IMG/VR virus record: IMGVR_UViG_3300044627_001345
Coordinates: 1-32,308 of that record
Length of the DNA: 32,308 nt
Direction: 5' to 3' (one strand)
DNA from: a virus
The first letter of the stretch is position 1; every line of letters begins with the position of its first letter. Both the position numbers and the translations under genes were made by a program. Below, piece by piece: positions 6,918 through 25,635 of the stretch. Under the pieces are notes generated by a model. That model was not told the DNA's origin. It searched no databases and saw only the letters and a list, made by a program, of their open reading frames with translations.

Positions 6918-8459
6918 TTAGACCGAAACTGCCTCTAAGAAAGCCCTAAGTGTTCCGGCCGTTAAAGTTACTCCGCCCTCAGTATTGATACCTTCTCCAT
7001 CAATGATTGCGTTTGCTACAGCCATCTTCTGTACGAGCATAGCGTGCTGACGTTCTTCAATTGATCCATCCATAATGAAGTCTTGGATTACGATTGAGGG
7101 CCATGTGCTGGATGCTCTTCTGATTCGTCCATTACGTTGAAGTGCGAGTCCTGCGTTCCACGGAAGATCATAGTTAATAAGAAGATTAGCTTGAGGTAGA
7201 TCAACACCATACCCCCCAGCATCAGAGCTGACAAGGATGCGAACTTTGGGATCCGTCTGGAACTTGACTTTTGATTCTTCTTTTTCTTTAGCATTCATTT
7301 CTCCCGTGTATGGTGATGACTGATAGTCGAGTGCTTCTCTAATTAACTTAACCATATGTACATAGCTTGTAAAGATAACAACTTTGTTTCCTTCGTACTC
7401 TCCCAGAAAGTTATCTACATACTCTTTGAGTGCGGATAGCTTTGGAGTTTGCTTTAACTTATCAAGCTTGCCCGCCTCTTCCAACTGTCCTGCGTAGCCG
7501 GATGTAGATGATGAGACACGGATCAGCTCATGGTGATCACAGAGCATACGAAGTGCTGTCAGCTTTGACATTACCTTGCCCTTAAGTGCGTCCATGACAT
7601 CGTTGGAGTGCTCCCCAGCGTAGTGGCTGAACAAATCAAATGATGAGCCGAATGACTCCACTGCATCGTCTAGATCCTTTAGGAGTTCTCGTGCAATATC
7701 TTTATAGAGAACAGATCCGGCACGATCAAACTCTACCAAAATTGGCTCCGCAAAAATTGTGTCGGGCAAGTAGGGTGCGACGTCTGCATCTGTCTGTCTC
7801 TTACGAACTGTTGTTGTTGCAAGAGTTTTGCTAAGGGTAGTTAGGTTACGGTAGCGCTCAACACCACCAAAGCGATTGCGTACAATAAAGGTTTGGTCAA
7901 AGAGATCAAAGCGTCCTAATACCTTTGAATCTACAAACTGCATAATGCTGTAAAGTTCTTCTGGCTTACCGTTCTCGATAGGGGTGCCGGTTAACGCAAA
8001 CTTAACAGGGCTAGTAAGCTTTTTTACTTGCTTTGATCGTTTTGATCTAAAGCTTTTGATTGCGGTTGCTTCGTCGCATACGACGAACCCTCTCGCAAGA
8101 TGTTGAACATACTCCCAGTCGTTAACAACCTGCTCGTAATTGAGGATGACGTAGTCAGCTGTTTCAGCGGTAACGTATTGCTCTGCTCTTTTAGACGGGG
8201 TTCCATCCACGACCACAGTGTTTGCAGCACCATCGGTAAATTTCCTAATCTGATCTGCCCACTGATACTTCAGTGAGGATAAGCAGATAACTATACCAGG
8301 TTCTGTAATCTTTCCTTCGTCTTTTAACTGCTCAAGAGCAGCAATAGTCAAAACTGTTTTACCCAGGCCAAGGTCATAGGCCACAAGCATCTTCTTGCGG
8401 CCTACCATAGCTTCTACAGCCTCTACCTGGTACGGCAGAAGTGTTCCGGTAAAACTCAT
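6918..8459 (-). CDS. SNF2-type DNA helicase/ATPase
   Basis: This 513-residue protein carries the motifs of the SNF2/helicase superfamily 2: LLPYQVEAVEAM (Q-like), motif I DLGLGKT (about 29-35), motif Ia VICLSSLKYQW, motif II DEAT (about 128), motif III ALTGTPIEN, VVIFTSY for the second RecA lobe, and motif VI LQRNGRIRRA. It would translocate on double-stranded DNA using ATP. Related phage proteins are placed in replication, recombination or protection of DNA, but the exact role is not known. The ATG overlaps the primase stop (ATGA). Accessory SNF2 domains (bromo, chromo, zinc) are absent, leaving only the motor. Confidence 0.92.
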   Translation of the reverse strand: MSFTGTLLPYQVEAVEAMVGRKKMLVAYDLGLGKTVLTIAALEQLKDEGKITEPGIVICLSSLKYQWADQIRKFTDGAANTVVVDGTPSKRAEQYVTAETADYVILNYEQVVNDWEYVQHLARGFVVCDEATAIKSFRSKRSKQVKKLTSPVKFALTGTPIENGKPEELYSIMQFVDSKVLGRFDLFDQTFIVRNRFGGVERYRNLTTLSKTLATTTVRKRQTDADVAPYLPDTIFAEPILVEFDRAGSVLYKDIARELLKDLDDAVESFGSSFDLFSHYAGEHSNDVMDALKGKVMSKLTALRMLCDHHELIRVSSSTSGYAGQLEEAGKLDKLKQTPKLSALKEYVDNFLGEYEGNKVVIFTSYVHMVKLIREALDYQSSPYTGEMNAKEKEESKVKFQTDPKVRILVSSDAGGYGVDLPQANLLINYDLPWNAGLALQRNGRIRRASSTWPSIVIQDFIMDGSIEERQHAMLVQKMAVANAIIDGEGINTEGGVTLTAGTLRAFLEAVSV

Positions 8460-9427
8460 ACGAAAGCTCGCTCTCCAAACACAGAATGCTTTGCACTCTC
8501 TATACCCATTATAACCTGATCCTCAGGCATATCGCCAATGTCTTTGTAGTCGCCGGTATAGTTAAAGAAGAAACACTCCAGGCCTTCCTTCTTAGTACGA
8601 GCAAGCATGTCACGAGAAGCTTTCTCTCCGGCTAGATCTACCTTAGGATTATCAAAGGCGATAATTAACTTATCTGCACGACGCATGAGATCAACTTGAT
8701 CCTGGCTGATAGATGCACCAAAGGTTGAGACGCCTCCTGCAATTCCCAATGATGAGAGTTTTACTACATCGAGTGGAGACTCAACAATGATCATAGTTCC
8801 ACCGGCCCACACATCAAGACCAAACAAAGTTTTAGACTTCTGCACACCGGTAGGGCGATTACGGAAGTAGCGATTGACTTGTCCCTTTTCTTGCCAGCCC
8901 ATAAGCTTATTGGTATCGGGTTGACGGATAGGTGTGATCCAACCCTGCTGCTTTGCATCCCATTTAACAGAGTGCTTAATGCAAGCCTCTGCGGTTAAGT
9001 CTCTAGCAGATAAAGCCCAATCTGGGGGTAGGCTGTCGAAAATCGACAGACGTGCCTCACTCATTTCTACCAAAGGTTGGACAGGGATATAGCTATTCTT
9101 AGCCTCTTCCAACTGCTTTGCAATCAGTTCAAAGTTAACCTCGATGTTCTGACGCAACCAGTCTTTGGCTGCCTCAAAATCAAGGCGACCCCACTGAGTT
9201 TCAAACTCATTGATCTCGGCTACAAGGGTGAGAAGAGTTCCACGGTATCCGCAGGAAAAGCAATGGTGGACACCGGTCTCTACATTCATAGACCATGACG
9301 GGCGAGAGTCTGCACGACCAGTTCGTTCTAGGTGCATAGGACATAGACCAAGCAACTCATCGTTGCGCTGGTCTACTTCAATACCTAGTCTTAGTAGTAC
9401 AGACTCTACGTCGCCCTCACGATACAT
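8456..9427 (-). CDS. DNA primase (CHC2 zinc finger and Toprim)
   Basis: From the ATG at 9427 this is 323 residues. The N-terminal zinc-binding domain has CPMH (Cys29, His32) and CFSC (Cys56, Cys59), the CHC2 pattern of DnaG-type primases. The catalytic Toprim part has TMIIVESPLDVVKL, with the conserved glutamate, and LIIAFDNPKVD for the acidic metal site. It makes RNA primers for lagging-strand synthesis and would work with the DnaB-like helicase at 9885-11129. I prefer 9427 to the ATG at 9466: GAGGA lies just upstream and the stop of the zinc-ribbon gene is one base away, while the longer form would overlap that gene. No C-terminal helicase domain is fused, unlike T7 gp4. Confidence 0.92.
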   Translation of the reverse strand: MYREGDVESVLLRLGIEVDQRNDELLGLCPMHLERTGRADSRPSWSMNVETGVHHCFSCGYRGTLLTLVAEINEFETQWGRLDFEAAKDWLRQNIEVNFELIAKQLEEAKNSYIPVQPLVEMSEARLSIFDSLPPDWALSARDLTAEACIKHSVKWDAKQQGWITPIRQPDTNKLMGWQEKGQVNRYFRNRPTGVQKSKTLFGLDVWAGGTMIIVESPLDVVKLSSLGIAGGVSTFGASISQDQVDLMRRADKLIIAFDNPKVDLAGEKASRDMLARTKKEGLECFFFNYTGDYKDIGDMPEDQVIMGIESAKHSVFGERAFV

Positions 9428-9428
9428 A

Positions 9429-9647
9429 TTAGTCCTCTTCTGTATATTCTTCTTTTGGTCTGTCATCCATCATTACATAGTCTTCTGGCATGTCTGGCAA
9501 TGTTGGTGCGGTAGCTTTAGTGCCACACTCTGCACACTCCATGTCTAAGAAGTACATTGAGATTTCATAGTCTTGGAACATAGCCTTAACATTCCAAAGC
9601 ATTGAACCACACGGACAAACGTGAGTTGGTTCTCCACGTACATCCAT
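9429..9647 (-). CDS. Small zinc-ribbon protein
   Basis: This 72-residue protein has a Cys-x-Cys (HVCPCG) and a Cys-x2-Cys (MECAECGTKA) separated by about 25 residues, the spacing of a zinc ribbon. An acidic tail follows (PEDYVMMDDRPKEEYTEED). It ends one base before the primase start and begins shortly after the WhiB gene, so it belongs to the replication operon. There is no clear Shine-Dalgarno site before the ATG at 9647. A role as a small adaptor or single-strand-binding accessory is possible but not shown by the sequence. Confidence 0.65.
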   Translation of the reverse strand: MDVRGEPTHVCPCGSMLWNVKAMFQDYEISMYFLDMECAECGTKATAPTLPDMPEDYVMMDDRPKEEYTEED

Positions 9648-9667: not shown

Positions 9668-9919
9668 TTAGATCGCTGATGTCTTTAATAATCGTTTCCT
9701 CTCCTGAGGTGTTGTTCCTGCCCAGATGCCCTCTAGGTTTGGGATCTGTATTGCGTACTTAAAACACTCTTCTTTAATCCAACAATCTCCACAAATTCCT
9801 TTAGCCCTCTGAACTGCTTTATGGTTTGTGTACTTTTCTGGAAAGAATACGTCTGGGTTTTCTCCAGCGCATAGTTGAGTTCCGTTAAAAGGGTTTGATT
9901 GGAGTGCCAAAGGTTCCAT
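9668..9919 (-). CDS. WhiB-family transcriptional regulator (canonical)
   Basis: From the ATG at 9919 this is 83 residues. Cys17, then GICGDCWIKEEC (Cys43, Cys46, Cys52), gives the normal C...C-x2-C-x5-C set for a [4Fe-4S] cluster, followed by the turn GIWAG and the basic helix TTPQERKRLL that contacts DNA. I rejected the longer frame from 10027 because its first 36 residues lie over the helicase gene and lack family likeness. The chosen start overlaps the end of the helicase by 35 nt and has GAAGAG nearby. Phage WhiB proteins are known to compete with host WhiB proteins at the sigma factor (for example WhiBTM4). It may switch host or phage transcription. Confidence 0.9.
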   Translation of the reverse strand: MEPLALQSNPFNGTQLCAGENPDVFFPEKYTNHKAVQRAKGICGDCWIKEECFKYAIQIPNLEGIWAGTTPQERKRLLKTSAI

Positions 9920-11129
9920 ACTCTTCGAACTTCCCTTCTTCCCAGTCCCATAGAAGATCGCTAGTTGCTGGACCGGAGTTACGGCTTGCAACAATACGAA
10001 GTTCACGGGATGAATCATCTTCTTCATCTTGTTTTTGAAGACCTAAAATAACATCTGAGTCTTGGAAGAACGAAGATGAATAACCAATCGCATCGGCAGA
10101 TACCTGACGCTTCTTCATTTTCCATAGAAGAACCTGGGTGGACACCACAATTGGAATATTAGCTTTCTGTGCTAAACGCTTTAGGTTACGAGTAATACTT
10201 GTCAAGGCCTGCGGTGTATTTGACTCACCGCTTGCCTCGTCAACCATAAGGTAGACACCGTCAACAAATACAATATCCGGTTTGATCTTCTCAATCTTTG
10301 CAGCCAAACCAGTAACTGTCATTGCAGAGGTACTATCTGTCAGGTAAAACTTCTGCATTGTTTCCATGCGCTCTAGGGTTGCTTTATATCTTTTCTCTTC
10401 GTCTAAGTTTAGATTTCCTCGTACCAAACGAGAGTGTGCAATCTTGGCACGCATAGCATCGTGACGATGTTGCTGCTCAATATTGCTCATCTCAAAAGAC
10501 TGGAACATTGGAACGTGCCCGTCCTCGTGTACGTTAACCGCAATCTGCATAGCAAGGACTGACTTACCAGTCTTAGGTGGTGCAATGATTGTAATCAACT
10601 GGCCATTCTGTAAACCGGCAGTAGCCTCGTCAATAGTTCTAAACCCTGTGCGGTACCCAAGCAAAGCACCATCACGAGTTTTAATATCTAAGTATTCTTG
10701 GTAACGCTTGTCGGGATCCTTAGTAAGATCAACGTCGCTAGATTGGGTAGCACCCTCATCATAGATAGTTGCAATGCCGGAACTCATCTCTGCAATCGCA
10801 CCGTCGTGATTTCCCGAAGCAATAAGCTCGGCGGCAGACTGAACTACTTCGATAGCTTTCTGACGTCTACGGTACTCTACTAGTTGATCTACCAGGTAGT
10901 CTAACGAATCTTCTACAGCAAGCAAACGGTATGTAGGAAAGTTATCCTTAACAGTTACTGCACTAGGGATCTCTTGGTAGCGAGTCCAGTGGGTACGAAT
11001 AAACTTCCAGACAGCACGGTTCTCATCAACAAAGAACCAACTATCGTCTACGCCCTTTTCTAAGGCAGGGATAATTTCCCGAGTCCTTACGACCCGAGAT
11101 ATTAATCTCTCTTCATTATCTGCTGCCAC
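9885..11129 (-). CDS. DnaB-like replicative helicase
   Basis: This 414-residue protein has a helical N-terminal domain (about 1-110), a linker, then TGFRTIDEATAGLQNGQL and a Walker A motif APPKTGKSVLA near residues 185-195. Then come FQSFEMSN, the Walker B strand IVFVDGVYLM and STQVLLWKMKK, matching the RecA-fold ring helicase DnaB. It would unwind the fork 5'-3' as a hexamer, loaded by the AAA+ protein at 11831-12508 and working with the primase. The start appears to be a GTG at 11129, overlapping the gene before it by 14 nt, with GGGGG a few bases upstream. The whole initiator-loader-helicase-primase set lies on one strand within 5 kb. Confidence 0.92.
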   Translation of the reverse strand: MAADNEERLISRVVRTREIIPALEKGVDDSWFFVDENRAVWKFIRTHWTRYQEIPSAVTVKDNFPTYRLLAVEDSLDYLVDQLVEYRRRQKAIEVVQSAAELIASGNHDGAIAEMSSGIATIYDEGATQSSDVDLTKDPDKRYQEYLDIKTRDGALLGYRTGFRTIDEATAGLQNGQLITIIAPPKTGKSVLAMQIAVNVHEDGHVPMFQSFEMSNIEQQHRHDAMRAKIAHSRLVRGNLNLDEEKRYKATLERMETMQKFYLTDSTSAMTVTGLAAKIEKIKPDIVFVDGVYLMVDEASGESNTPQALTSITRNLKRLAQKANIPIVVSTQVLLWKMKKRQVSADAIGYSSSFFQDSDVILGLQKQDEEDDSSRELRIVASRNSGPATSDLLWDWEEGKFEEYGTFGTPIKPF

Positions 11130-11830: not shown

Positions 11831-12508
11831 TCATCCTCGTCTGTCCCCCTGTGGCGCTTCTACTTCGATTGGTATGAACGCTTCCATAGCAAAGCTTCCC
11901 ATAGGTGAACCATAAACACTTCCCCAATTTTCAAGAGGAACGTTTGTAGTTACAATCGTTGGAAGCCCTGCGTTAAATCTTGAACGTAGTAGTGCATCAA
12001 ATGTGTTCTCTGCCCAACCTGATGCGGTTCTATATTCCTTGCCAATATCATCTAGAACAAAAACTCTTACATTATTCATTCTATCCGAGTCACCATATAT
12101 GCCGTCAAGTAGGATTTGAGTTGCCTCATCCTCGTCAGAGAACTGGGACTTCTGAAGCCTCAAAAGCTTTGGATAGTCCATAAACCCGCCTATGCGTTTT
12201 GGGAAGCCTCCAGGGATCCCTAAGACGTCTGCTGGAATACCCCTGATAAGGCTCTGCAGGGCCGTAGAAGCCATTGTAGTCTTGCCGTGACCTGGATTAC
12301 CCACCAGCATAATTCCGAGCCCGCAGGACGGAGATCCAGCCTTTTGGATGATCTCCCCATTGACCACTCGAGCCACCCATTTCTTAACTGCTTCTAGGGC
12401 GGGTGTGGGATCCAAATCAGAAAATTCTTTCCCAATGGTTTTCATTGGGAGACCAGCCTGTACGATCTGCTTCCGAATGCTTGGTGCTTCTTTAGACAAG
12501 TCGTACAT
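11831..12508 (-). CDS. DnaC-like AAA+ helicase loader
   Basis: This 225-residue protein has an AAA+ core: Walker A GNPGHGKTT near residues 68-76, Walker B VFVLDDIGKE near 148-157, an arginine-rich helix (DALLRSRFNAG) and sensor I IVTTNVPLENWG. This matches DnaC/DnaI and phage loaders that open and place the DnaB ring at the origin. It starts with an ATG overlapping the TAA of the initiator-like gene (TAATG), so the two are probably made together. The next genes are a SWIM protein, an unknown and the DnaB-like helicase. This order of initiator, loader, helicase is the functional order of lambda O, P and host DnaB. Confidence 0.88.
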   Translation of the reverse strand: MYDLSKEAPSIRKQIVQAGLPMKTIGKEFSDLDPTPALEAVKKWVARVVNGEIIQKAGSPSCGLGIMLVGNPGHGKTTMASTALQSLIRGIPADVLGIPGGFPKRIGGFMDYPKLLRLQKSQFSDEDEATQILLDGIYGDSDRMNNVRVFVLDDIGKEYRTASGWAENTFDALLRSRFNAGLPTIVTTNVPLENWGSVYGSPMGSFAMEAFIPIEVEAPQGDRRG

Positions 12509-13416
12509 TATTCTCCCTCTAGTAGTCGCATCATCTTTTCTTGATGTGCTTTGAACTTATCAGTTGAGTACGTTGGTTGATCTGGCTTCTTAACAATTCC
12601 CTGGATCGTTGGGTAGTATGAAAAGAATCGTTGCCATAGTGGCTTGCCGATACCAAGGTCGTTTAGATTACGTGGATCCGCAAAGAACATACGCATAGCT
12701 TTTAGGACTTCATATCGTTGTGTTCCTTCACCAACCTGCTTGTTAATCCAAGTCGCTAGGTACTTGTTGTTAACTTGGCTGGAAGTGTTTGGTGCAGCCT
12801 TTTCAACTAGGTCGTAAAACTCTGCGATCAAGTCTGTGGTAGACCAAAGCTCTTCTGGAGTATTGATTCTATCCTTGCTGTCACGCTGAGCCTTTACTGG
12901 CTTCTTGTACTTTGCGTTGAGTCGAGCCTGGCGATCTTCGATCTTACCGATAGTTCCGGTGGCAGGTTCTTCCTGGCCTCGCTTTACCTTAGGAGCTTCT
13001 TCATCTCCATCAAGATTCCAAACCATCTCTTCTCCTTCTTGGGGCGCAGCCCCTATAGTTAAAGATACGTTAGTATCTTTAACTATATTAGTACTAGTAG
13101 TTATATCACTAGTAGCTATATAGTTGTCTATGTATAGGTGCCCTGAAAAGCCGTTGTCGGTAGAAAACAGCTTTTTAGCCTCTTCTGTGAATTTTAGACG
13201 GGCAATCCATTGCCCATTGTTCTGTACTCGGACAGACTTAACGTACTTGAGATCTTTCAATTCATTGATGGCAGACTGAAGCGCATCCCTACCTTCAGGG
13301 AATTCTTTGGTGCTTCGTAATTCGTCAGCCGAAATAACCCGACCCTTTTCAACAAAGTAATAGAAAAGTGATCTGGCCCGTAAAGATAATTTTGGGTTAA
13401 CAATTGGTCTTAGCAT
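12508..13416 (-). CDS. Replication initiator-like protein with N-terminal winged helix
   Basis: This 302-residue protein begins with a winged-helix domain (LSLRARSLFYYFVEKGRVIS, EGRDALQSAINELKDLKYVKSVRV, then wing strands to about residue 80). A low-complexity, Ser/Thr-rich linker (about 95-130) comes next, then a charged stretch, and a helical C-terminal domain (LIAEFYDLVEKAAPN...ATWINKQ...WQRFFSYYPTIQG) reminiscent of DnaD- or O-type partner-binding regions. It would bind the phage origin and recruit the loader encoded immediately downstream. The linker-coding DNA holds the inverted and tandem repeats at 13041-13122 and uses only ATA for isoleucine. The start is supported by AGAGGGAGGG before the ATG. 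The initiator role is inferred from domain layout and position. Confidence 0.65.
   Translation of the reverse strand: MLRPIVNPKLSLRARSLFYYFVEKGRVISADELRSTKEFPEGRDALQSAINELKDLKYVKSVRVQNNGQWIARLKFTEEAKKLFSTDNGFSGHLYIDNYIATSDITTSTNIVKDTNVSLTIGAAPQEGEEMVWNLDGDEEAPKVKRGQEEPATGTIGKIEDRQARLNAKYKKPVKAQRDSKDRINTPEELWSTTDLIAEFYDLVEKAAPNTSSQVNNKYLATWINKQVGEGTQRYEVLKAMRMFFADPRNLNDLGIGKPLWQRFFSYYPTIQGIVKKPDQPTYSTDKFKAHQEKMMRLLEGE
13054..13087. repeat. Perfect 15-bp inverted repeat, candidate origin element
   Basis: TATAGTTAAAGATAC (13054-13068) and GTATCTTTAACTATA (13073-13087) are exact inverted copies around GTTA. The element is AT-rich, lies inside the linker-coding part of the initiator-like gene and is directly next to a 5-bp GGGGC/GCCCC inverted repeat at 13041-13053. 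It could be a binding site for a dimeric initiator or a DNA-unwinding hairpin. As RNA it would be a stable stem without a U tract, so a terminator is unlikely. Confidence 0.8.
13093..13122. repeat. Two 15-nt tandem direct repeats, iteron-like
   Basis: ACTAGTAGTTATATC (13093-13107) and ACTAGTAGCTATATA (13108-13122) are adjacent and differ at two positions. Their length is five codons, so the reading frame is kept (the protein has YIATS then DITTS). They lie five bases from the 15-bp inverted repeat, in the most AT-rich patch of the gene. Iterons inside an initiator gene are known from lambda O; that this is an origin is an inference. Confidence 0.65.
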
Positions 13417-21463: not shown

Positions 21464-23224
21464 TTATCCATTCTGAGTGCTAGCTAAGTATTCTTTAGTT
21501 GATGCTACAGATGCACCTGTTCCAAAGGCTTCTGTTTCATTCCAAAGAGCTGGGTAACGAGCAAATGTAATGTTGACAGTACTAAGCATAGGCACCATGT
21601 TTAAATCAAACATTGCGTGGCTTACTGAAAAACTTGCAACAGATCCATAATACCGCAAGTTTTCATTTAAGACTAACCAGCAAGGCACACCAGTTGTATA
21701 TCCAAAGTCAGCGGTAGCACCCTTGTACTTTGTGCTTAGTAATAAGGAGTCCTTTAAAGGATCTCCATTTAGTACCCTATACAAAAATTCAATATCATAT
21801 TCTGTACCACGATTTAAAATACCTTGTTTTTCAATCTCAGTAAGATCTCTTCCATAAACCTGTGCCTCAGGAACTTTTGGATTCTTTAGGCGCAAGTATT
21901 TTAAATCAGGTATGCGGTTAATATATACCTCAACATTAACAGCAGAGTTACCTGTAAGTAAGGTAGCAGGATCACTCGCTCCTAATGTCCAGTCGACAGA
22001 ATTATTAGATGAACTTTGGTACCCAAAGGTAGAAGGATTATACATAAACCTAAAACCCCATTGATTTGTAGCCCCCTTAGCAGAGACCAGTTCCTTTAAC
22101 TTATCTGGATTTTTGTTTAAAACAGCAGCACTATTTGAGTCTTGAAAAATTCTTCCACGGTCTTTTTCTGAAAAAGCAGGGACAATATCATAATCTGGAT
22201 TAGCTTTGTAATTAACTCGTTCTCCAAAAGACGGGCCTCTTGCGTCACGATGAGGGGGTGGGTTCCACCTAGTGTCTCCCTTAGGAGGAGTTACAGTAGT
22301 GATATCTTTTAGTCCATTACCACTAGGTTGGTCGTCACATGCTGCGTTTGATTTGGCAGCAATCATCTTATTAGTTACATTCTTTTTAGTCCAGGCGTCT
22401 AGTTTTGTTTTTGTAGACAAATCGTTTGCGTTTGGTTTAGATGTTTGTTCACATTTATCACCATTTTTTGTGCATGTCCAATGTGCTTGATATCCTTGGC
22501 CACCATATTGTTTACTTTTATACTTTACAACAAAGTTCCATAACTTAGTACACTTATCCCAAGTGTAGTTTGTTAAGATTTGAATTACATTATCGTAACC
22601 ATAAGTTAATTGCAGCACAGGAATATCTCCGTTATTCTGGGCTTTGATTACTTCTTGTATAGCAACTAAAGGAAAAATAGGTGGGGTAACAACTGTTGTC
22701 CAAGTAATGTTAGGTACTGCGTTATTTGGGGTTCCCCAATTTATTCTATTATCAGGTATCTTTGTCCAGTTAGGGCTAGCATCGCTTTTCCATTGAATTG
22801 CTACTGTAGGTGTGGCAATTACATTTGTATTTGTAGCTCCACCCTTACGACTAAAGCTAACTTTTAAACGCCCGTTATCATTTGTAAGAGCGCCTTGTGT
22901 AACAAAACTAGCTTGAGCAGAACTAGTGTTTGGACTAGCAGTAGTGCTTGTAGTTAAACCATTGGCTAATCCATTGTCTTCATTGGTACCTGAGTTAGGA
23001 GAAACAAGTTGTCCAGCAAAAGTTCCATCTGATCCGGTAGCTACCCAAGTAGCAAAGTTACTAATACTAGTGGCGTAAACTTCAAATAAATAATAAACAT
23101 AAAATTTAGTGTTTGTTTTATGGTTGGCAGAAGTAATTCGAGTACTACTCATTAATTTTGCTGCAGAAAGACCACCAGCTTCATCTTGATAGCGACGAAC
23201 ATTTACATAGTAATAGGTGGCCAT
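21464..23224 (-). CDS. Tail tube initiator-like/baseplate protein with novel N-terminal half
   Basis: The C-terminal part of this 586-residue protein (about 380-560: NQWGFRFMYNPSTFGY, VEVYINRIPDLKYLRLKNPK, LNRGTEYDIEFLYRVLNG, DFGYTTGVPCWLVLNENLRYYG, MLSTVNITFARYP) resembles the baseplate proteins that cap or start the tube (T4 gp54/gp48; contractile injection system tube-initiator type). The first 220 residues are beta-rich and Thr/Asn-rich. Residues about 215-310 hold four to five cysteines in KCTKLW, HWTCTKNGDKCEQ and NAACDDQ with many Lys and Trp. I do not recognise that part. It lies between the tape measure and the LysM protein, the normal place of the tube initiator. Confidence 0.68.
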   Translation of the reverse strand: MATYYYVNVRRYQDEAGGLSAAKLMSSTRITSANHKTNTKFYVYYLFEVYATSISNFATWVATGSDGTFAGQLVSPNSGTNEDNGLANGLTTSTTASPNTSSAQASFVTQGALTNDNGRLKVSFSRKGGATNTNVIATPTVAIQWKSDASPNWTKIPDNRINWGTPNNAVPNITWTTVVTPPIFPLVAIQEVIKAQNNGDIPVLQLTYGYDNVIQILTNYTWDKCTKLWNFVVKYKSKQYGGQGYQAHWTCTKNGDKCEQTSKPNANDLSTKTKLDAWTKKNVTNKMIAAKSNAACDDQPSGNGLKDITTVTPPKGDTRWNPPPHRDARGPSFGERVNYKANPDYDIVPAFSEKDRGRIFQDSNSAAVLNKNPDKLKELVSAKGATNQWGFRFMYNPSTFGYQSSSNNSVDWTLGASDPATLLTGNSAVNVEVYINRIPDLKYLRLKNPKVPEAQVYGRDLTEIEKQGILNRGTEYDIEFLYRVLNGDPLKDSLLLSTKYKGATADFGYTTGVPCWLVLNENLRYYGSVASFSVSHAMFDLNMVPMLSTVNITFARYPALWNETEAFGTGASVASTKEYLASTQNG

Positions 23225-25635
23225 TAGAGCGCACTTCCAATCTGCTTAAGAACATTACTATCAGTAAGCTTCTTACCCACTAATCTTACTAGACGATCTG
23301 CTTCTTGGACACTTCCTTGAGCAATATTCACCTTCATTTGTAGATTAATTACAACGTTACCTGACTTAGAGCCTGTTGAGCTTGGGCTACCAAGATTCAT
23401 TTCTTGTACTGGACCACCAAGATCTTCATTAAAACCTGCTGAACTTAAAGAAGTAGTAAGGGCAGGACTTGAAAACTGTGTTAAATTTTTAGATTTAAAT
23501 CCTTTAAGAGCAGCTTTTTTAGCTGCCCAATTAGATTGAGGCCCAATTGCTTTAGGTCCAGCTGCTGCGGAAGATCTCATGCTTCCATTAATAGGGGCTG
23601 CAGGAGCACCACTTAAGTACGGGGCTGGGTTAACTTTAACGCCACGTTCATTAAGAATTTCAAAGTGAAGGTGGGCACCAGTAGAGTTGCCTGCACCTGC
23701 TTGCCCCTTCTTTCCTCCAGACCTGCCGATAACTTGTCCTGCAACAACTTTTTGTCCCTTATAAACATTAACTTGTGACATGTGTGCGTAACGAGATGAA
23801 GTGCCGTCTTCGTGCTTTACCTCAACCCAACGACCATAACCCTTAGCTTCATTTCCCATAATACTAATTACGCCATCTGTAACAGCTGTTAGGGCAGTAC
23901 CCGATGGAGTACCGAAGTCTATACCTTTATGGTTAGAAGAAATTTGTGGGTTCTGAGAATTATCTCTTGGACCAAAAGGAGAAGTAATTGGGGTTGCTTT
24001 TGGCACAGGGCTAGCAAATGGGCTTGGTACTTTTTCTTCTTTAGGTCCGCCAACACCTAAGTTACCGTGATCGTGTGGGCCACCAGAACCAAAGAAACCA
24101 CCAAGACCTCCAATAACAGTACCGATAACGGCACCAACAGGAGAGGTGAGGGGCGCAAGAGGGCCTCCAAGAAGACCTAACGCAGCACCTGTTGCTGCAC
24201 CAGCTCCTGCACCAGCAAGAGTACTTCCAACACGGGTTGTTGTGTTAGACACTCCAAGTTTATTTCCAACTGCTTTTCCAGCTTTACCGGTTCCATAACC
24301 TACAGCGCCTGCACCTAGTCCTGCTATAGCACCTGCTCCAGCAGCGGCAGCACCAGCACCTAATGCTGTAGTAACACCTTTACCAAGAAGACCAGCTGCA
24401 CCAGCACCACCTAGCAATCTACTTACTAAGACTACTTGTAAAATAGTTGAAGTAAGGCCTGCTAATGCACCAACAAAACCTGCAATAGCTCCACCCATAT
24501 TTCCTGCATTAGGTAGAGTCTGCAAAATTCCTTTAAGAGTCATTAAGCCGTCATTAACTGGGCCAAGAGTATCTGCCATAACACTGTAGGCATCATTAAG
24601 GGCTGCAGTACTACGAAGAGCAACGTTGTACCCGCCAACTAAACCTTCTTCAGTTGACTCAAGCTTTCTATTCTCACTGGAGTTAAATCTAAAATTAGAA
24701 CGAATAGGAGAACTCTTGTCTACACCCAATACGTCAAGCATTGAATTTGGATCTTTACTACTCATTGCAGAGCTAAATTTTTTATCGCTACCTGCACTGG
24801 CACGGGCAATAATACCTGATTGAATCATCTGCATTAGCTGAGCATCGCCACCAGTAATTTGCTGAAGAGTTGCGTAACCTTTGCTTCCAGGGTTTAGTAC
24901 AAGAGCGGCCTGTTGTTTTGTAATCTTTTGTCCACGATACAAGAATCTGTACACGTCGTTAATAATTTGATTAGGTGGTTTTAAATTTCCTTGAGGATCA
25001 CGAATTTGTACGCCAGCACGTAAGAAACTCATACCGTTCATGCCCGCTACACTTGCAGCAGCCATCTCGTTACTCATACCAGACATAGCACTCATACCAC
25101 CAATTTGTGACATGATGTTTTGAGAGCTTAATGAGCTAGCAGTATATCCGCCTTGGTAGGTTAAATTCATTGCAGCCATGGTTGGACCCATAGCGCTTGT
25201 TGCTCCGCCCCCTGCTTGACGGTTAGCCTGCGTAATTGCTTGGCGTGAAGACATTCCACTAAGGCCAGCATAAGTGTCTGCACCCATGCGTTGAGTAACT
25301 GCGGCCATAGTGTTAGGTGCTACAGCAGCATATGTGCTTGCACCAAAACCTGCTAGGCCAATTCCCAACCCAAATTTTTCAGCACGGGTAAAAGAACCAA
25401 GACCAAGACGTCCAGCGCCAGGTTTGTCTGAACTCATTTTACGTACAGAGTCTTCTGTACCCTTCATGGTTTTAGACCATGCTTCAGCGATTTCGTCTAC
25501 AAGTTTTTTAGCTTCTCTAAAATATTTAATAAAGCCTTTAGGCATGCCCTCAAACTCAAGGTCACTACCCGTAGATGAAAACGGGGTGGACGCAGCATCG
25601 GAAGCACTTTCCATATTTCCATATGCTTCTGACAT
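23224..25635 (-). CDS. Tail tape measure protein with M23 peptidase domain
   Basis: This 803-residue protein has a charged N-terminal part, Met/Gly/Ala-rich helices (AAASVAGMNGMSF), a long Gly/Ala-rich hydrophobic block near 390-520 (LLGGAGAAGLLGKG, GAGAGAATGAALGLLGG), then an M23/LytM peptidase near 548-675. The peptidase shows SPFGPRD, HKGIDFGTPSG (His and Asp ligands), RYAHMSQ and HLHFEI (His-x-His). Tape measures set tail length, and the peptidase would cut the host wall peptide bridges as the tube enters. It starts 6 nt after the small frame at 25641 and shares a 1-nt overlap (TAATG) with the next gene. Being only about 800 residues long it suggests a moderate tail of roughly 100 nm, using the known 1.5 angstrom per residue rule. 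Confidence 0.92.
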   Translation of the reverse strand: MSEAYGNMESASDAASTPFSSTGSDLEFEGMPKGFIKYFREAKKLVDEIAEAWSKTMKGTEDSVRKMSSDKPGAGRLGLGSFTRAEKFGLGIGLAGFGASTYAAVAPNTMAAVTQRMGADTYAGLSGMSSRQAITQANRQAGGGATSAMGPTMAAMNLTYQGGYTASSLSSQNIMSQIGGMSAMSGMSNEMAAASVAGMNGMSFLRAGVQIRDPQGNLKPPNQIINDVYRFLYRGQKITKQQAALVLNPGSKGYATLQQITGGDAQLMQMIQSGIIARASAGSDKKFSSAMSSKDPNSMLDVLGVDKSSPIRSNFRFNSSENRKLESTEEGLVGGYNVALRSTAALNDAYSVMADTLGPVNDGLMTLKGILQTLPNAGNMGGAIAGFVGALAGLTSTILQVVLVSRLLGGAGAAGLLGKGVTTALGAGAAAAGAGAIAGLGAGAVGYGTGKAGKAVGNKLGVSNTTTRVGSTLAGAGAGAATGAALGLLGGPLAPLTSPVGAVIGTVIGGLGGFFGSGGPHDHGNLGVGGPKEEKVPSPFASPVPKATPITSPFGPRDNSQNPQISSNHKGIDFGTPSGTALTAVTDGVISIMGNEAKGYGRWVEVKHEDGTSSRYAHMSQVNVYKGQKVVAGQVIGRSGGKKGQAGAGNSTGAHLHFEILNERGVKVNPAPYLSGAPAAPINGSMRSSAAAGPKAIGPQSNWAAKKAALKGFKSKNLTQFSSPALTTSLSSAGFNEDLGGPVQEMNLGSPSSTGSKSGNVVINLQMKVNIAQGSVQEADRLVRLVGKKLTDSNVLKQIGSAL

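Follow-up and report, generated by a model that had tools for sequence, protein, structure and literature searches.

Tandem hairpins conserved by structure in the linker-coding region of a freshwater phage initiator-like gene suggest a replication origin

The initiator-like protein described here had no relatives among GenBank phages (bar a short partial match), plasmids, or the genomes covered by one GTDB scan. Could the replication origin of the phages that encode it lie within the initiator gene itself? We addressed this question in a 32,308-base record, classified as a virus, which was analyzed over its full length and is referred to here as the window. Genes for the initiator-like protein, a DnaC-like loader, a DnaB-like helicase, a primase, PolA, and RecA form a replication block in the window, all on the minus strand. 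The 302-aa initiator-like protein is encoded by an open reading frame at 12508-13416 (minus strand) with weak winged-helix matches and weak matches to replication-initiator PHROGs. Directly downstream is the DnaC-like helicase loader (11831-12508, minus strand; PHROG 50, E 8e-25), followed by the DnaB-like replicative helicase (9885-11129, minus strand; Pfam DnaB_C, E 4e-33) and a DnaG-like primase with Toprim and zinc-ribbon domains (8456-9466, minus strand; PHROG 47). These Pfam and PHROG matches confirm the order of initiator, loader, and helicase given in a preliminary description of the locus, which had proposed a lambda-O-style origin within the initiator gene. The loader, helicase, and primase genes are found beside the initiator gene in distant relatives as well. 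In related ~100-kb genomes the initiator-like gene is located between the tail genes and the replication genes, and a tail sheath protein is encoded in the window.

A structure model of the initiator-like protein, with a mean pLDDT of only 67 and weak fold matches, has the arrangement of a lambda O-type initiator: a winged-helix N-domain (aa 1-86), a linker (aa 87-159) with pLDDT below 50 that is predicted to be disordered, and a helical C-domain (aa 160-302). The comparison with lambda O holds for the gene order and for the weak duplex described below, but not for the protein sequence. The window protein has no match to the Phage_rep_O Pfam family, its relatives have only weak generic helix-turn-helix matches in Pfam, and an O-like PHROG (678) matches just 5 of 28 family members (best E 1.6e-5) and not the window protein, so that membership in the lambda O family by sequence is not supported. 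A sequence search of the PDB with the initiator gave nothing meaningful, and a fold search of the PDB gave generic winged-helix matches only, none of them below E 0.001. Protein searches identified homologs on more than 100 viral contigs, and the family with this initiator is one of freshwater phages. No relatives were found among the plasmids searched, in one GTDB scan, or in a DNA search of GenBank phages, while a protein search of GenBank phages returned a sole match that covers 22% of the query. Within the family, the two domains have different histories in some pairs of phages: L119 and L174 share 97% identity in the C-domain and 61% in the N-domain, and the situation is reversed for L167 and L186, with 88% identity in the N-domain and 51% in the C-domain. 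The linker repeats are therefore also at a recombination boundary.

The DNA that encodes the linker contains the GC-rich hairpin, the 15-bp inverted repeat, and the adjacent direct repeats at the coordinates noted in the preliminary description. Hairpin 1, at 13054-13087, has a perfect 15-bp stem and a 4-nt loop, which is TAAC on the coding and GTTA on the non-coding strand. It is the sole perfect inverted repeat of at least 10 bp (loop of at most 8 nt) in the window. When the linker protein was recoded at random with synonymous codons and phage codon usage, a 15-bp inverted repeat arose in 4 of 20,000 recodings; it is not rarer because the amino acids of the linker are themselves compatible with a palindrome. 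Hairpin 2, at 13041-13053, abuts hairpin 1 and consists of a GC-rich 5-bp stem (GGGGC-GCA-GCCCC), with a loop that reads TGC (coding strand) or GCA (non-coding strand). As single-stranded DNA, the hairpin stretch folds with a z-score of -7.6 on either strand. Upstream of the hairpins, a repeat search identified two adjacent ACTAGT-type direct repeats at 13093-13107 and 13108-13122 (minus strand; 14 nt and 93% identical as called by the tool), which are candidate initiator-binding sites. The two repeats can pair with each other to form a third, weaker hairpin that was not part of the preliminary description.

To compare relatives we used 84 distinct linkers, which remained after removal of duplicates and come from proteins with identities down to ~41%. 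Some of the loci were retrieved by matching a DNA pattern in which a portion of the hairpin is mandatory, which biases them towards hairpin presence. In a first set collected by protein alone, the hairpin occurs in every gene (54 relatives and the window), and distant relatives collected by protein alone added new arm sequences and one exception with no hairpin. A few sequences that the script's motif could not place were left out of the 84, and of the two inspected by eye, the stem is perfect in L065 and contains a single mismatch in L352. Hairpin 1 is retained in 83 of the 84 linkers with ~24 different arm sequences, its loop being C-TAAC-G in 69 and C-TAC-G in 14. Across the 14 alleles with the TAAC loop, 98.6% of cells pair, compared with 25-41% in slid controls, and 12 of the 15 pairs have changed on both sides, with 46 cells showing two-sided changes and none showing one-sided changes. 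G-U (G-T) pairs are absent from the 14 main alleles. The nine alleles with the TAC loop have the same pairing behavior, with deviations at the outer ends only. Mapped on a C-domain tree, hairpin 1 shows at least 26 inner-arm changes but only 3 loop changes. Many of the changes replace an A-T pair by a T-A pair, for which either a mismatch or a concerted change is needed as an intermediate. Hairpin 2 is kept in nearly all relatives with an arm set of its own (~19 changes of arm class on the tree) and abuts hairpin 1 in most of them. Both hairpins thus behave as the preliminary description had anticipated for a functional element, in that they persist although the protein sequence of the linker drifts, and from this sequence comparison we consider it secure that the hairpin element is selected as a structure. 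The only relative among the 84 with neither hairpin is L254, which indicates that the hairpins are not indispensable. In L254 (103-1005), more ACTAGTACTA-type repeats are found in place of the hairpins.

The loops are restricted as well. In 72 of 83 sequences, the hairpin 2 loop belongs to the gCNNGc type or, read on one of the strands, to the GNA or GNNA type, and the hairpin 1 loops on the non-coding strand are GTTA or GTA. Loops of the GNA and GNNA types form unusually stable DNA mini-hairpins (PMC4686876). The non-coding-strand loops GCA, GTA, GTTA, and GTCA of the phages, closed by C-G, fit these classes, although the mini-hairpins are synthetic or short fragments (PMC4686876) and the class match implies no biological role. 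No further copies of the hairpin 1 type were found elsewhere in eight related ~100-kb records, and a dispersed palindromic element was rejected on this ground. One of these genomes, G019 (L430-L434), has a perfect 21-bp inverted repeat with an 8-nt loop at 77292-77341 that is longer than hairpin 1.

Codon choice also sets the linker-coding region apart. The claim that the linker isoleucines all use ATA proved correct for aa 96-121 (5 of 5), and the other 12 isoleucines in the gene use ATT or ATC (0 of 12 ATA). Over the 54 nt that precede hairpin 1 in the relatives, ATA is chosen in 72% of cases compared with 11% in the rest of the gene, and a bias in the same sense is seen for ACT (84% vs 37%) and AGT (63% vs 11%). 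The ACTAGT motif occurs 126 times in the linkers of the relatives, where 5 occurrences are expected by recoding, or 68 when the codon usage of the linker itself is applied. The motif was rejected as one confined to the linker site, being scattered genome-wide. With respect to the iterons of a lambda-type origin, the linker-coding region has two repeats in the window, with ACTAGT enriched in the linkers of relatives yet present elsewhere too. A nearest-neighbor scan, suggested along with the original proposal, identified 13056-13135 as the 80-bp stretch with the weakest duplex anywhere in the window (rank 0 of 32,228) and hence as a candidate unwinding region. The number of loci weaker than the linker site in eight related ~100-kb genomes is 0, 0, 1, 3, 1, 1, 9, and 47, with many such loci in two of them, G018 and G019. 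GC skew, which had also been suggested as a check, did not serve as one. The minimum of the detrended cumulative GC skew falls within 1.3 kb of the initiator gene in four of eight genomes, which are related to each other, and in the remaining four 10 to 20 of ~200 bins lie below the cumulative skew at the initiator gene. However, this minimum is confounded by coding composition: coding-strand skew at four-fold degenerate sites does not rise consistently across the initiator gene, unlike what is expected at an origin. Because the four-fold sites lack a switch, GC skew was dropped and is not counted as support.

The same stretch appears to hold a translation start, a feature that goes beyond the preliminary description. 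A Shine-Dalgarno (SD) sequence, AAGGAG, at 13032-13037 (minus strand) is followed after 5 nt by an in-frame ATG at 13024-13026, from which a 172-aa isoform consisting of the C-domain is predicted (12508-13026, minus strand). In the structure model, this start falls in the disordered linker ahead of the C-domain. An SD and an in-frame start, followed by x-Trp, occur after hairpin 2 in all 84 distinct sequences, with ATG in 72 and GTG in 12. Anti-SD pairing at the internal start ranges from -8.1 to -13.0 with a median of -10.4 (72 sequences), compared with a mean of -3.1 at other in-frame ATG and GTG codons. The use of GTG as proof from codon bias is weakened by the fact that GTG is the only valine codon one step from ATG. 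A better argument is the absence of any codon besides ATG and GTG at this position in the 84 sequences despite at least 7 changes. Short Rep proteins in the same frame are known from plasmids, and those of pIGRK have opposing functions (PMC6854812). As with RepR and RepR' of pIGRK, the phage initiator would have an N-terminally truncated form that begins at an internal start in the same frame, but the plasmid short form is demonstrated, whereas the phage isoform is predicted and would lack the whole winged-helix domain (PMC6854812).

What, then, is the hairpin element for? We think it on balance probable that the linker-coding stretch is a phage replication origin inside the initiator gene, a reading based on its position, the gene order, and the lambda precedent (PMC5043065). 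The main rival reading is that the hairpins are an mRNA element just upstream of the SD that governs the internal start of the C-terminal isoform, for instance by preventing occlusion of the ribosome-binding site, delaying ribosomes that arrive from upstream, or stabilizing a processed transcript, and that the AT-rich repeats merely encode a flexible Thr/Ser linker. This reading gains from the constant orientation of the hairpins immediately 5' of the SD, from the universal presence of the SD and start codon, and from a very stable RNA fold (-38 kcal/mol, z -5.3). The coding-strand loop of hairpin 1, UAAC in RNA, also resembles a type of RNA tetraloop; since the loops fit a DNA class too, loop sequence by itself cannot discriminate between a DNA and an RNA element. 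An mRNA element would, however, leave the weak duplex, the upstream repeats, and the codon bias unexplained, and the spacing between hairpin 2 and the SD is variable. The lack of G-U pairs in the main alleles of hairpin 1, the presence of a weak duplex and a repeat bias next to the hairpins, and L254, which retains the SD and ATG with no hairpins, lead us to favor DNA over RNA and to view an element of the mRNA as unlikely. A search for known RNA families gave no match. An intrinsic terminator was rejected, with no terminator-like site on the hairpins and no T-run after hairpin 2 on either strand, and a promoter search of the linker yielded one weak 9-of-12 match at 13109-13082, the number of matches being the same as in shuffled sequences. 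That the element acts both as DNA at an origin and as an mRNA structure, coupling the dosage of initiator isoforms to the same site, would fit the conservation of both sets of signals together in nearly every relative, and seems to us improbable rather than far-fetched.

Two further readings appear far less plausible still. The palindromes could be functionless, with template switching during replication keeping the arms identical and the protein sequence of the linker hardly mattering. Concerted changes are known to arise by template switching, which can alter the two arms of a stem in a single event (PMC8794818); in addition, the linker is predicted to be disordered, and domains have been exchanged at it. 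Yet the position, the abutting hairpin 2, and the sequence and orientation of the loop survive at least 26 arm changes, and the eight genomes have no such palindromes elsewhere, so that we give this reading very little weight; template switching would itself act on DNA. Similarly, the exchange of N- and C-domains at the linker might suggest that the double hairpin serves a different process on the DNA, as a recombination boundary, for instance, or as a hairpin promoter for an RNA polymerase, but no recombinase or virion polymerase gene is tied to the hairpins and there is a single site per genome, beside the replication genes, which makes this reading highly unlikely.

For the origin that we favor, the best reading is a site that operates in the manner of the lambda O origin, with the difference that its palindromic module is conserved as a structure. 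In this mechanism, the winged-helix N-domain of the initiator would bind the putative ACTAGT-type sites, the adjoining very weak 80-bp duplex would open, and the C-domain would recruit the DnaC-like loader and DnaB-like helicase encoded next door, after which the phage primase could prime synthesis. The two abutting palindromes would form DNA hairpins, either on exposed single strands or by extrusion under supercoiling. The feature that is read would be the stem with its compact loop (GTTA, GTA, GCA, or GTCA on the non-coding strand), leaving the arms free to drift while they remain complementary. The hairpins might delimit the bubble, keep it from closing, or provide a site for loading or priming, and the short C-domain isoform from the same site could tune initiation. 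We put forward more tentatively, as a proposal that may well prove wrong, that this is a double-stranded DNA phage origin with tandem DNA hairpins read by shape and loop and not by arm sequence, evolving by coupled changes of both arms within a coding gene, and that its position is shared with the internal isoform start so that the origin and the control of initiator dosage are one locus. If so, an origin can be maintained as a hairpin shape while its coding arms drift, and one short stretch would combine protein code, DNA structure, and a translation start. A structure-conserved element found family-wide in more than 80 distinct sequences offers a testable origin and a handle for searches in other phages.

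The lambda origin also lies within the initiator gene, with an AT-rich region adjacent to it (PMC5043065). As in gene O, origin-like repeats and an easily opened A+T-rich stretch are in the linker-coding part, and a helicase-loading gene comes next (PMC5043065). In lambda, four 19-bp inverted-repeat iterons of conserved sequence are bound by O dimers, whereas the window combines a pair of short direct repeats with two hairpins that abut and in which the arms vary and the pairing and loop are kept (PMC5043065). Lambda uses the host DnaB, in contrast to the phage-encoded DnaB-like helicase of the window (PMC5043065). The closest cultured relatives found for the loader and helicase, at ~30% identity, are in the Streptomyces phages BRock, LuckySocke, GiJojo, and pSt2308. 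The two of these that were checked, BRock and LuckySocke, have neither a full-length initiator homolog nor a hairpin of at least 9 bp near the loader gene. Just before the DnaC-like loader, both encode a ~155-aa protein (BRock, L435 2289-2750; LuckySocke, L436 2499-2972). We do not claim a stand-alone C-domain homolog in Streptomyces phages, as the match of the BRock protein to the C-domain is very weak (E 0.07 to 0.6). Among the other genes of the window, one among the tail genes (23224-25635, minus strand) encodes a protein of 803 aa that contains an M23 peptidase domain and is possibly a tape measure. Two WhiB-like proteins are encoded at 506-838 and 9668-10027 (minus strand), the second in an open reading frame that, as listed, overlaps the end of the DnaB-like gene, and WhiB-like proteins have been described as an indicator of actinophages (PMC10202952).
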